Positions 11,316-36,626 of a stretch of DNA of 40,900 nt are shown piece by piece; the first letter of the stretch is position 1; every line of letters starts with the position of its first letter. The DNA lies in contig NZ_NAPS01000002.1 of NCBI RefSeq assembly GCF_004323185.1, positions 2,453,785 to 2,494,684 of the forward strand, written 5' to 3'. The notes below the pieces were generated by a model. The model was not told where the DNA came from. It saw only the letters and a program-made list of their open reading frames with translations, and did no database searches. The stretch comes from Westiellopsis prolifica IICB1. Lineage in GTDB: Bacteria > Cyanobacteriota > Cyanobacteriia > Cyanobacteriales > Nostocaceae. The position numbers were made by a program, and so were the translations under genes.

Positions 11316-12386
11316 TTAATTGGGATTTACTTCAGGCATCATGCATTTATCTGAATCACAACCTGCGGGTCCTACTTCGATTAATTCACCGAAATCATAA
11401 TGACTCAATGCTGTGTGAAAATCATTCGTTTTACGACGTACTATGACTTCTTGCATCAGTTTTTCGTACTGATCCTTTGTAATTGGTTCAAAGGGCAAGC
11501 GTGGAAAAGTTTGATGATCATCAAATCGCGCTAAAAGAGCTGCACTGATATAACCTTCATCATCACGAATAGTTTCGTATATACGACTTCCCAAAGCTTC
11601 TACTTCTTGCTCTCGCAGTTCAATTGTAGCAGATGTGTTATGGGTCACATAAAATTTCTGCACCTGCATATAGAAATCCATCTGAGATAAAGCGCTAAAT
11701 TTACTAATGTCAACTTCATCAGCGCCTGATAAATCAGCCCAAGGAACAGCCACAGGAATTTCTACTAACCACTCACTGACTCTAGAATCAAAGGGGTCAT
11801 TTAATAAATTCCCCTGTTCATCTTTATCAGATTGAGAAGGTATGACATTGTAACCATAGTCAATACATGCTAAAGCTACTGGATCATTTTTACGGAAAGT
11901 GATTCTGCGAATAAATCTTTGGGCTTTGGGGGGGTGCCATCCTGGAGAAGCACTAGTCAACAAAGATTTTGTACCACTAGGCTGAACAGTGGTGCAACGA
12001 TTTGGACGTTTAAGATTATGCTTGGAGCAATAATCCCAAACTACCTGATGCACAATATTTTTCCAGGTACTCAAGTATTTTTGTTCTTCATGTTTAAACG
12101 CCAATCCTTGAGCAGTGTTTGGTCTTCCTTCAGCCCACCAATATAACCAATCAACCCCAAAAGCATGAACAAAGAAATCAAATAAACCAGTAAAAGAAAC
12201 TCCGACAATCGGGTCAAGTTCACGGCTGTATTGATAGCGTGGCTCTTGGAATTTGTGATGCAAAAGAGCAGCTACAGATAATGCACCTGCGGTGAAGGCT
12301 TCTTCCTGTTCTTTATAGTTAAATGGATCAATTTGATTGAGATGGATTTCTGATAAATTACAGTGGAAGTTAGCACCAATAATCTC
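11316..12386 (-). CDS. nrdJ: Ribonucleotide reductase class II NrdJ, exon 2
   Basis: C-terminal 356 residues of the adenosylcobalamin-dependent ribonucleoside-triphosphate reductase. Read in phase with exon 1, it begins E-I-I-G-A-N-F-H-C-N, supplying the catalytic Glu and the second redox Cys region of the family. It ends with the C-terminal disulfide-shuttle pair in GCDSDKCMMPEVNPN. It has no start codon of its own that makes biological sense; the TTG at 12263 is inside conserved sequence. Joined to exon 1 by removal of 12387-12649, the product is 767 residues, close to the usual monomeric class II length. Unspliced message would stop 2 codons into the intron, so this part is expressed only after splicing. 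Confidence 0.93.
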   Translation of the reverse strand, partial: EIIGANFHCNLSEIHLNQIDPFNYKEQEEAFTAGALSVAALLHHKFQEPRYQYSRELDPIVGVSFTGLFDFFVHAFGVDWLYWWAEGRPNTAQGLAFKHEEQKYLSTWKNIVHQVVWDYCSKHNLKRPNRCTTVQPSGTKSLLTSASPGWHPPKAQRFIRRITFRKNDPVALACIDYGYNVIPSQSDKDEQGNLLNDPFDSRVSEWLVEIPVAVPWADLSGADEVDISKFSALSQMDFYMQVQKFYVTHNTSATIELREQEVEALGSRIYETIRDDEGYISAALLARFDDHQTFPRLPFEPITKDQYEKLMQEVIVRRKTNDFHTALSHYDFGELIEVGPAGCDSDKCMMPEVNPN

Positions 12387-12649
12387 CAGTTTTGTTACCC
12401 TAAAGGCTTTTTATCCTCTAGTTCTACAGGTTCTATAATTCCCTGTAGCTCGGCATACATTTTCTACCATTTGGTAGCCAGGGACTCTTGGAGACATTAT
12501 TGCTCTCTTAACGCTCAGTCTCTATGCTCTACGGTGTCTGGTGATTTTCCAGATTACCACGGGATTGGCAGGTTCATCTGCTAATGATTCCTGTTCTCAG
12601 CCTTCCCCGTTTTTCCCCAGTTTTTTACGTGAGGCAAGTATTATCAAAT
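12387..12649 (-). ncRNA. Group I self-splicing intron in nrdJ
   Basis: 263 nt between exon 1 (ending ...CGTGTGGT) and exon 2 (starting GAGATT). The hallmarks fit: the 5' exon ends in U, the intron ends in G, and exon joining restores N-P-C-G-E. P1 can form between exon CGTGTGGT and intron GCCTCACG with the required U-G at the splice site and a single internal mismatch. A GACT/AGTC pairing resembling P7 (AGAGACTGAG ... AAGAGTCC) is visible, as are a TCTGG/CCAGA stem (P6-like), a CTACC/GGTAG hairpin and CTACAGG/CCTGTAG hairpin (P9-like) near the 3' end. No open frame for a homing endonuclease. Class inferred from these elements by eye; a covariance-model search was not run. Confidence 0.88.
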
Positions 12650-13882
12650 ACCACACGGATTTAAACCATATCTACTCAAACGATGTTCTAATTCTTGAGC
12701 ATCAATATCTGGGTGACGTTGTTGTATCCATTCTTTGGCTTTTCCTTGCTCATAAGCTTGCAAAAATTCAGTTTTCAATTCTGGTATATTTAGCAGATCA
12801 CAGTTAGCTCTGGCTACAGCTTCACCAGCCCATTGAATTGCACCTTCGCCACTGTAGTATTGTTTGCGAACAGCATCAACACATTCTTCTAATGTTGGCT
12901 TACGGTGAAAAACTCTGGTGTGGTTTGCCATTCGCAGTGAATCCCGTTCTGGATCAATACGCCAGTTGCCGTTTTCATCCTGATGCCAAAGGTTTGCTTT
13001 CGCATCAGCAAACAAATTATCACTGCTATAACCTTGACGTATTCCCGCACTTCTTCGGATATTGCCTGCAACAATTGTTACAGCAGCTTCATCGATCAAC
13101 AAACAGCATTCTACTGAATTTAATTGACGCCCAATTGCTTTATTAAGGATAGAAGCGCAGCGCTGGTACAGTCCAGGCAGTTTTACAGGATTGGCAACTC
13201 CTCCAAAGCCATTAAGAACTTCTCCGGCTTGACGCACATCACTGATATCAACTATTACTTGAATTTCCTGAGTCAATCTTTCATCTGTAGAGAGTTCTAG
13301 TAAACTCTGATATGATTGCACCCAGCCTTGACGGCTGTCTCCGACATGGATGATAACGCGGTTAGCATTTGTATCTATTTTGACTTCTGTCAATTCATGC
13401 CGTTCTAGACGGGGAGTAAAACCAATTTCTCCCTGTACAGTTACATTTAAACGATTACGAATTGGGGGCAATTGGTTGATGTATTTTGGTTCTAAAATTG
13501 CTCCAGTACCACAGCCCATCATTGCCAAATCCATCATCAAACCAAAAGCACTCCAGTCTTGGAGGTTGGTAGAAGTACAATTGTAAGCCCCAGAAAAATT
13601 CTGTGGCTTGGCTATCCAGTCTGTACCACCAACCCACAGCCAGCGCCCACTGGGTAATGCTTTCAAGTTACGCTGCATCCGTTCGAGAATGTCAGCCTCT
13701 TGTGGTTGTAGTTTCCCTAAACTGATTAAACCTCCCAAAGTGCGATCGCACACCTGTTCCCATGTTTCTCTTGTTTGTGCCTCTCTACGACGGCTGTAAG
13801 TTCTAAAAAACACTGGGTTAGCAGCTGGGGCTGTTTCTGGAAAGTTTGCACTCTGGCGTTTTCGTTCAAGCTCTCGAACCAT
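12650..13882 (-). CDS. nrdJ: Ribonucleotide reductase class II NrdJ, exon 1
   Basis: N-terminal 411 residues of the B12-dependent ribonucleotide reductase, which makes deoxynucleotides from ribonucleoside triphosphates without oxygen. ATG at 13882 gives MVRELERKRQSANFPETAPA, a plausible family N-terminus. Conserved stretches include GRWLWVGGTDW, the first active-site Cys region (SGAYNCTST), the MDLAMMGCGTGAI loop and the final RYGLNPCG at residues 405-411 with the thiyl-radical Cys (C410). Translation through the splice site would add one Ile and stop (TGA at 12644-12646), cutting the protein before the catalytic Glu. Monocistronic by context. Confidence 0.95.
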
Positions 13883-34919: not shown

Positions 34920-36626
34920 ATGAGTTACAGAATGGATCGCCGCGCCTATGCGGAAACCTATGGTCCGACGGTAGGCGATCGCATCCGCCTAGCCGATACA
35001 GAATTATTTATCGAAGTTGAACAAGACTTTACCACCTACGGCGATGAAGTAAAATTTGGTGGTGGTAAAGTCATTCGCGATGGAATGGGACAATCCCCCA
35101 TCTCTAACGCCGATGGTGCTGTGGATATGGTAATCACCAATGCTTTGATTCTCGATTGGTGGGGTATCGTCAAAGCAGATATCGGTATTAAAGATGGCAA
35201 AATCTTTAAAATGGGTAAAGCCGGCAATCCCTATATTCAAGACAATATAGATATTATTATTGGCCCTGGTACAGAAGCCGTCGCTGGTGAGGGTATGATT
35301 GTCACAGCAGGCGGTGTTGATTCCCACATCCACTTTATTTGTCCCCAACAAATCGAAGTGGCGATCGCATCCGGAATTACTACAATGCTCGGCGGTGGTA
35401 CTGGCCCAGCTACAGGTACAAATGCTACTACCTGTACACCTGGCCCTTGGAATATTTACCGAATGCTGCAAGCCGCCGACGCCTTCCCCGTCAACCTGGG
35501 ATTTTTGGGTAAAGGTAACACCAGTCAACCCCAAGGACTTACAGAACAAATTTTAGCTGGTGCGATGGGATTAAAACTCCATGAAGATTGGGGAACCACA
35601 CCAGCAACGATTGATACTTGTCTTAACGTTGCTGATGAGTACGATATTCAAGTAGCAATTCATACTGATACCCTTAACGAAGCAGGATTTGTAGAAGACA
35701 CCATCGCCGCTTTTAAAAATCGTGTCATCCACACCTATCACACCGAAGGCGCAGGTGGTGGACATGCACCGGATATTATTAAAGTCTGCGGTGAGGCAAA
35801 TGTTTTACCATCTTCCACCAACCCCACTCGTCCTTACACTGTTAATACTCTCGATGAACACCTAGATATGTTGATGGTTTGCCATCACCTTGATCCGGGA
35901 ATTGCTGAAGATGTGGCGTTTGCTGAGTCACGCATTCGTCGCGAAACCATCGCCGCAGAAGACATTTTGCATGATTTGGGTGCATTCAGCATGATTTCTT
36001 CTGACTCCCAAGCAATGGGAAGAGTAGGAGAAGTAATAATTCGCACTTGGCAAACTGCACATAAAATGAAACTGCAACGGGGAAGCCTTGGTAGAGATAG
36101 TTTAGCCGATAATTTACGGGCTAGGCGCTATGTTGCTAAATATACTATAAATCCGGCGATTACCCATGGAATTTCTCAGTTTGTGGGTTCAGTGGAAGAA
36201 GGTAAATTAGCAGATTTGTGTTTGTGGCGTCCGGCGTTTTTTGGTGTGAAACCAGAAATCGTCATTAAAGGTGGAGCGATCGCATGGTCACAAATGGGAG
36301 ATGCTAATGCTAGTATTCCCACACCCCAACCTGTACATATGCGTCCGATGTTTGGCAGTTTTGCAGGTGCGCGTCACGCGACATCCTTAACTTTCGTTTC
36401 GCAAACAGCATTAGAAAACGAGATTCCTAGTCAGTTGAAGTTGCAAAAGCAAGCAGTTGCAGTTTCAGGAACACGCCAGTTAAGTAAGCAGGATATGAAG
36501 TTGAATGATGCACTACCGCAGATTGAAGTTGATGCAGAAACTTATGAAGTGAGAGCTGATGGGGAGTTGCTGACCTGTGAACCTGCAACAGTTTTACCAA
36601 TGGCGCAACGCTATTTTTTGTTCTAA
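34920..36626 (+). CDS. ureC: Urease alpha subunit
   Basis: Catalytic subunit of the Ni-dependent urease that splits urea to ammonia and CO2. 568 residues, full length. Ni ligands and active-site residues are present: HIHFICPQQ, carbamylated Lys219 in [42 protein letters not shown] and the flap [14 protein letters not shown]. The start ATG ([20 protein letters not shown]) is standard. It lies only 29 bp after hpnJ, with no ureA or ureB upstream, unlike the usual ureABC order; these subunits must be encoded elsewhere for a working enzyme. Ribosome binding site weak. Confidence 0.97.

Follow-up and report, generated by a model that had tools for sequence, protein, structure and literature searches.

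A predicted group I intron at the active-site motif of nrdJ in Westiellopsis prolifica and its relatives at the same codon junction

Group I introns in bacterial ribonucleotide reductase genes have been described before. Meng, Zhang and Liu reported in 2007 (doi 10.1128/JB.01424-06) a group I intron in the RIR gene of Nostoc punctiforme PCC 73102, a report we follow through the passages that cite it (PMC12702839, PMC1995217 and PMC3984707), and the RNRdb description, in the part consulted, counts more than 100 curated group I introns in reductases (PMC2795772). With the 2007 report of introns in cyanobacterial reductase genes and the RNRdb entries, the class is already known, as an earlier note on this DNA had suggested that it might be. 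Group I introns of phages and Bacillus are described in Twort nrdE, SPbeta bnrdE and recA/nrdE of the B. cereus group (PMC3653736, PMC3984707), and a group IA2 intron in Thiomargarita dsrA (PMC4853749). In-frame stops in such introns are viewed, according to PMC3984707, as evidence that ribosome stalling may assist intron folding and splicing.

The window analyzed here, a stretch of 40,900 nucleotides of the Westiellopsis prolifica IICB1 genome, carries on its minus strand both nrdJ and a 263-nt insert (12387-12649) within it. The gene is laid out as follows:

12650..13882, minus strand: nrdJ exon 1, 411 codons ending in LNPCG, placed by translation and by TIGR02505 positions 16-378
12387..12649, minus strand: predicted group I intron, 263 nt, with no ATG-led ORF longer than 28 aa; the held-out model R1 matches 12449-12622 at 106.4 bits
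11316..12386, minus strand: nrdJ exon 2, 356 codons plus stop, starting EIIGANFHC, placed by translation and by TIGR02505 positions 379-723

The insert splits the active-site motif of the class II ribonucleotide reductase between N-P-C-G and E, and its excision leaves a frame of 767 residues (411 + 356), both as the earlier note had read them. A TIGR02505-type class II reductase profile (NCBIfam) is matched across both exons: exon 1 covers profile positions 16-378 of 724 with 335.2 bits, which for this exon alone is 5 bits short of the whole-protein cut-off of 340.05, and exon 2 covers positions 379-723 with 401.7 bits, the two ranges abutting at 378/379. Exon 2 occurs once in the genome, which is listed as 99.98% complete. 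Neither a class I large subunit (PF02867) nor a class III enzyme (PF13597) was found in this genome by searches that were positive in 11 and 6, respectively, of 14 control genomes, and nrdJ is the sole reductase detected. These results support the view, put forward in the earlier note, that dNTP synthesis would depend on splicing.

Exon 2 is present in 79 of the 148 genomes of the order sample, the window's own included. Reading the NPCG/E junction in these 79 placed an intron at the exact point in 34, comprising 29 introns of the window's kind (type 1) and five of a second kind (type 2; G005, G039, G062, G081 and G121). The 5' exon reads CCGTGTGGT in all 29 type-1 cases and CCTTGCGGT in all five type-2 cases. 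A BLASTN search with the insert returns 29 of 148 genomes, exactly the type-1 set, and misses the type-2 introns, which were found by reading exon junctions. Where the junction is unbroken, in 23 genomes, these nine bases are not constant: one genome has CCGTGTGGT and two have CCTTGCGGT. The last 300 nt of exon 1 in G033 (unbroken, CCGTGTGGT) are 85-86% identical to those of its intron-bearing congeners G092 and G109, and in G011 (unbroken, CCTTGCGGT) they are 97% identical to those of the type-2 bearer G081; the empty sites of G033 and G011 appear to be recent losses or open targets. The comparison of relatives that the earlier note had proposed gave 34 filled sites in 79, with the insert exactly lacking in G033 and G011.

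In three of the genomes examined, G073 (L010), G107 (L101) and G124 (L014), exon 1 is broken a further time by about 200 nt containing stops, in the stretch from residue 388 to NPCG; the peptide that comes next, MTFTISNET..ELEHRMSRFGLNPCG, is conserved and begins with ATG. This arrangement suggests a two-ORF nrdJ that still bears the intron.

The same three genomes, with their upstream break and ATG-led peptide, lend something to the idea that NrdJ is made from two separate genes as two assembling polypeptides with a non-coding spacer between them, as does the fact that exon 1 alone is an open frame of 412 aa. We nevertheless consider this reading exceedingly improbable for the window. The first possible start (ATG, GTG or TTG) in the exon 2 frame is a TTG at 12263, which is 41 codons in and lies beyond the conserved E and the Cys of FHC; the two halves of the TIGR02505 match abut; the supposed spacer shows the fold and covariation of a group I core (see below); and G033 and G011, close to intron-bearing genomes, lack the insert exactly. 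For an intron within a single gene, the splice-site features are as follows:

12650..12657, minus strand: 5' exon side of P1, CGTGTGGT, with U at the splice site
12644..12646, minus strand: in-frame TGA, intron codon 2 (GGT/ATT TGA), 5' of the guide sequence
12628..12635, minus strand: internal guide sequence, the intron side of P1, GCCTCACG; P1 is present in the unconstrained fold
12387..12387, minus strand: terminal intron G (omega-G)

The exon end in U and intron end in G described in the earlier note recur throughout the site. A T closes the 5' exon in all 34 intron-bearing genomes, and the terminal intron G, counted without requiring a G, is present in 34 of 34 introns by peptide position and in 26 of 26 by tblastn boundary. 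The U-G splice pair occurs in 22 of 22 distinct rows; the window's insert shares with group I introns both this pair in P1 and the terminal G. P1 marks the splice site by pairing CGTGTGGT with GCCTCACG, also as described earlier, save for one internal U-U mismatch, which is common to all 29 type-1 copies. Of the 29 type-1 introns, 26, the window's included, have GCCTCACG as their guide and keep the outermost P1 pair, which is broken in the other three (G065, G147 and G107).

Downstream of P1, the remaining elements of the predicted fold are arranged along the insert in the following order:

12614..12620, minus strand: P3 5' strand, CTGGGGA
12605..12610, minus strand: P4 5' strand, ACGGGG
12559..12563, minus strand: P4 3' strand, CCCGT
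12533..12558, minus strand: P6/P6a hairpin, GGT...ACC enclosing TCTGG/CCAGA
12523..12527, minus strand: P7 5' strand of the guanosine-site helix, GCATA, from the alignment of relatives
12491..12522, minus strand: P7.1, GAGAC/GTCTC, around a degraded P7.2, between P7 and P3'
12478..12484, minus strand: P3 3' strand, TCCCTGG
12464..12477, minus strand: P8 hairpin, CTACC/GGTAG, from the unconstrained fold
12453..12457, minus strand: P7 3' strand, TATGC, from the alignment of relatives
12424..12448, minus strand: P9 hairpin, CTACAGG/CCTGTAG
12400..12421, minus strand: P9.2 hairpin, CTAGAGG-ATAAAAAG-CCTTTAG, strongly conserved in sequence

A group I fold comprising P1, P3, P4, P5, P6, P6a, P7, P7.1, P7.2, P8, P9 and P9.2 was placed on 23 of the 29 type-1 introns; the six excluded from the alignment are four of 428-1153 nt together with G021 and G048, which have long loops. 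Across these 23, 97.6% of the 1434 cells of the 66-pair fold are paired, and 41 of the 66 pairs have changed on both sides. Double-change cells number 249 vs. 74.9 (sd 6.7) in shuffles (0 of 500), as counts of non-independent events, given that the 29 type-1 introns share ancestry, and none of five fold measures was matched by any of the 500 shuffles. The covariation score is 0.495 vs. at most 0.095 for slid structures, which are 31-45% paired, in a comparison that favors the proposed structure over its slid versions because it was derived from an aligned row, that of G091. P7 is paired in 100% of cells, with two of five pairs doubly changed, and occurs as GCGUA/UACGC, GCAUA/UAUGC (the window's form), GACUA/UAGUC and GAGUA/UACUC; P3 is 98.5% paired, with five of six pairs doubly changed. 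The insert has, on this evidence, the P3-P8 core with the P7/P3 pseudoknot of a group I intron.

Subgroup IA is defined by extra stems, P7.1 and P7.2, between P7 and P3', and these are found here: all five pairs of P7.1 have changed on both sides, and P7.2 is 90.8% paired among the relatives. The window copy forms 59 pairs, with two broken and five gapped, keeping P7.1 and largely losing P7.2. Its unconstrained minimum-energy fold, a method that cannot display the P7 pseudoknot, contains P1, P3, P4, P6, P8, P9 and P9.2 and is more stable than all of 200 shuffles (z -3.48); in it, the stretch 12491..12522 is paired otherwise.

The erosion of P7.2 in the window speaks somewhat for a group I intron that has lost its ability to splice, in a gene that is dead or whose work another reductase has taken over. 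This is highly improbable in our estimate: both exons are open throughout, P3, P4, P7 and P9 all pair in the window (P3 and P7 with bases unlike the commonest pairs), and neither a class I nor a class III reductase was found in the genome to serve instead.

A covariance model of the core from P3 to P7', R1, was built from 12 relatives with the window excluded. It matches the window with 106.4 bits (E 1.2e-22), its single match across the genome at E 0.001. Across the 148 genomes, R1 matches all 29 type-1 sites with at least 76 bits (12 of these being its training rows), and 13 other listed matches at different places reach 38-59 bits. Rfam's RF00028 does not match the insert at its gathering score or at E 10, nor in a whole-genome search, and the insert falls outside that family as Rfam delimits it. 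We treat RF00028 as a means of detection and not as a defining chemical feature; because the relatives' own model R1 matches strongly, we read the miss as a limit of the Rfam model. The Rfam search that the earlier note had suggested as a check on 12387-12649 consequently fails at both thresholds, and the absence of a covariance-model match, which it had named as grounds for rejection, holds for RF00028 and not for R1 (106.4 bits).

The same division is seen across the sample. RF00028 matches all five type-2 sites (75-89 bits); the matches listed, which extend from ~62 bits upward, include none of the 29 type-1 sites. In 14 of the 29 type-1 genomes (including G107 and G124, which are absent from the RF00028-matched rows), all RF00028 matches lie elsewhere or there are none at all; in the remaining 15, the site may have a weak match below ~62 bits. 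Direct searches at E ≤1 gave no RF00028 match in nine type-1 loci, the window's included, and matched in three type-2 loci. Taken together, covariation, the held-out covariance model, the U-G splice pair and the terminal G support the group I identity given in the earlier note, and sequence comparison identifies the 263-nt insert as a putative group I intron of subgroup-IA-like architecture.

Three further Rfam results concern the same DNA or genome. An isrN match in the window reached 11.7 bits against a gathering score of 44 and was taken as chance. At 35071-35361 (minus strand), the window matches 5_ureB_sRNA with 135.7 bits, antisense within a 568-aa ORF (34920-36626), where conserved coding sequence alone may account for the match. 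The genome's only RF00028 group I match (G000:C1:429454-429722, 84.7 bits) may be an intron of the tRNA-Leu(UAA) type.

We are nearly certain that the insert is a group I intron of nrdJ that should splice itself out. From its observed position, fold, covariation, family and shared site, we infer the following course of events in the cell. Once nrdJ is transcribed, the intron RNA would fold, and an external guanosine held in P7 would cut after ...CCGUGUGGU. Attack by the freed exon behind the terminal G would then link GGU to GAG and re-form N-P-C-G-E. Ribosomes would be halted short of the guide sequence by the in-frame stop, intron codon 2.

A stop is found within the first three codons in 29 of 29 type-1 introns, and it lies 5' of the guide sequence in 31 of the 34 introns of both types. 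Together with the ribosome-stalling view of in-frame stops in PMC3984707, this pattern makes it conceivable that splicing relies on a helper protein or is under translational control by way of the early stop. We consider this distinctly less probable than efficient splicing of the RNA alone, given the compact core and the strong unconstrained fold; moreover, the 29 introns are related, and their shared stop may be inherited.

The junction is also occupied outside the Cyanobacteria. A pattern for the 3' hairpin found 103 stretches in the genome collection, of which 80 were examined as loci; nrdJ of the window's kind is present in 49 and absent in 31. In 47 of the 49, an intron sits at the NPCG/E junction, and in L131 and L172 NPCG was not found upstream within the locus DNA. 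Of the 31 others, 23 are Bacillota loci with an intron at the NPCG junction, and eight involve other genes or are unassigned. The nine Bacillota loci that were read have a flanking protein of VVATNPCG/EQPLAPxSVCNL or very near it, and three exon-2 proteins scanned gave class II families (PRK08115, TIGR02504) as their best. In these three, residue 4 of exon 2 falls on TIGR02505 position 382 and residue 1 accordingly on position 379, the same junction as in the window. On the intron tree, the Bacillota introns, 23 in number, group in a single supported clade to which neither the 48 cyanobacterial introns nor the viral one belong, a separation that rules out recent movement between Cyanobacteria and Bacillota for the sampled copies.

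Several Bacillota class II genes (L112, L140, L149 and L189) have an apparent second interruption near GGSRRGK/AQMIML, and in L112 a nearby ORF reads, by eye, as LAGLIDADG-like. In a contig titled uncultured Treponema sp. (L155), R1 makes four matches on one strand within 1.5 kb (64-1537), which the model would place as several related introns clustered together.

A viral scan with a shortened 3'-hairpin pattern returned at least 120 stretches, giving 80 loci. Among the 80 listed, a nrdJ-like gene is present in two (L290 and L276), both with an intron at the junction. The other viral loci show the 3' hairpin to be shared by a large family of phage-associated introns, and by itself it is no sign of close kinship. 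The L290 intron with its flanks matched 20 of 50,697 phage records, none over more than 80% of its length, and the exon 2 protein matched 225. The nrdJ of Cr-LKS4 (L333) is uninterrupted (2253 bp), and another phage record (L334) has a single long annotated ORF.

The wider set shows how P1 relates to the host codon. We compared 71 introns (70 from named contigs plus viral L290) chosen by the pattern CCNTGTGGT then GCCTCANN, which left free only the third base of the proline codon, its partner and the outermost partner. The proline codon and guide are CCG/CACG in 67, CCA/CATG in two, both from Bacillota, and CCT/CAAG in one, L290; in the last, CCG/CACC, the pair is broken. In type 2, GCGGT is paired with GCCGC in all five introns. 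In viral L276, an intein end precedes TGTGGT and the guide has CAG against CTG (a single case, read by eye): the last-codon base of the intein stands in for the proline base in P1. Neither the Bacillota class II junction nor this codon tracking is mentioned in the open-licence literature searched, a scope outside which Meng et al. 2007 falls.

Inteins are the intron's neighbors in these genes. In-frame inserts occur in nrdJ at four sites (residues 277, 409/410, 418-420 and 549). Six were scanned, namely one per site, a second at 418-420 and that of L276: all six match Pfam Intein_splicing and an intein N-terminal model, two over cut-off in each case, and all six match LAGLIDADG_3 over cut-off. 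The 409/410 site lies 6 nt upstream of the intron. Read by hand, the 79 genomes divide into 34 with the intron, 22 with the 409/410 intein, 23 with neither and none with both (Fisher p 2.8e-7, with relatedness left out of account). In eight genomes the intron is found together with the 418-420 intein, and in seven the 409/410 and 418-420 inteins occur together. Damage to P1 or to an endonuclease target could explain this pattern. Strict exclusion as a structural rule is refuted by viral L276 (8555-9779), where 6 nt separate the end of the nrdJ intein from the group I intron.

The earlier note had remarked on the lack of an endonuclease frame and left the intron's spread as a question. The first point is correct for the window copy, in which the longest ATG-led ORF is 28 aa and no intron-encoded homing endonuclease is seen; nor is it an IStron, as its 263 nt hold no transposase-sized ORF. 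Among the 29 type-1 introns, that of G092 alone holds a long ATG-led ORF, of 322 aa; in the others none exceeds 79 aa. In the pattern-found set, introns longer than 700 nt number 10 of 47 in cyanobacteria and 15 of 23 in Bacillota, in addition to viral L290, and ATG-led ORFs of at least 130 aa are found in 10, 11 and one of these, respectively. Ten intron ORFs were scanned: two have HNH and one GIY-YIG; two match Phage_endo_I below cut-off, one of them also NUMOD3 below cut-off; one matches helix-turn-helix and other DNA-binding families only; one matches NUMOD3 below cut-off; and three match nothing. By these matches, the family would include at least two endonuclease types and probably a third. 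Some of the relatives' ORFs likely encode DNA-cutting enzymes that could aid intron spread, so the question is answered in part, for some relatives at the same site.

Presence of the type-1 intron on a quick nrdJ exon tree requires at least 15 changes, of which starred branches force 11, against a shuffled mean of 23.8; taken together, the four site states require 31. The congeners G092 and G109 are 97% identical in the last 300 nt of exon 1, and their introns (L129 and L134) fall in different clades. Identity of intron core and exon is weakly correlated (Spearman 0.26, 1035 pairs), where the exon side is represented by 231 nt of exon 1, up to a point 9 nt short of the splice site, and the core side uses conserved columns, which inflates its identity. 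These patterns point to repeated gain, loss and replacement of the intron, with past movement that may have been driven by endonucleases. The window's copy most likely belongs, as a member without an endonuclease, to a mobile family that sits at this single codon junction of class II reductase genes in Cyanobacteria, in Bacillota and in viruses. A more speculative proposal, which we put forward tentatively and hold to be rather doubtful, is that the intron fixes host codons through P1 and keeps the gene free of the intein whose site is 6 nt upstream, that nrdJ-bearing viruses ferry the endonuclease-bearing form, and that ORF-less copies such as the window's persist by protecting the site.

Should splicing be confirmed, the one pathway to DNA precursors detected in this organism would depend on a ribozyme. 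Rare events could also be studied in the family as a natural experiment: one codon junction is shared by two class II reductase lineages of different phyla and by viral contigs, with related genomes differing by an intron, a second intron, an intein or nothing. As RF00028 misses introns of the window's type, such genes may be annotated as broken or split.

Cyanobacteria also have small, ORF-less group I introns of the tRNA-Leu(UAA) type. These belong to a subgroup other than the window's and to another host gene, and R1 does not match the C1:429454-429722 locus (L001). Introns of the phage/Bacillus type are alike in the 3' hairpin and the core, and R1 matches introns in other genes or at unassigned places in viral and bacterial contigs (L145, L155, L219 and L230, for example); these lie away from NPCG/E of class II enzymes, the published introns being compared by description only. 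The N. punctiforme PCC 73102 RIR intron, compared through citing descriptions only, is likewise a group I intron in a cyanobacterial ribonucleotide reductase gene, but by the title of its report it carries an insertion sequence element, whereas the window's has 263 nt and no ATG-led ORF above 28 aa. The type-2 nrdJ introns differ from the window's in being RF00028-positive (5 of 5, 75-89 bits) and in their guide, GCCGC against the codons CCT TGC, yet they share with it the insertion point, the U-G splice pair and the terminal G.
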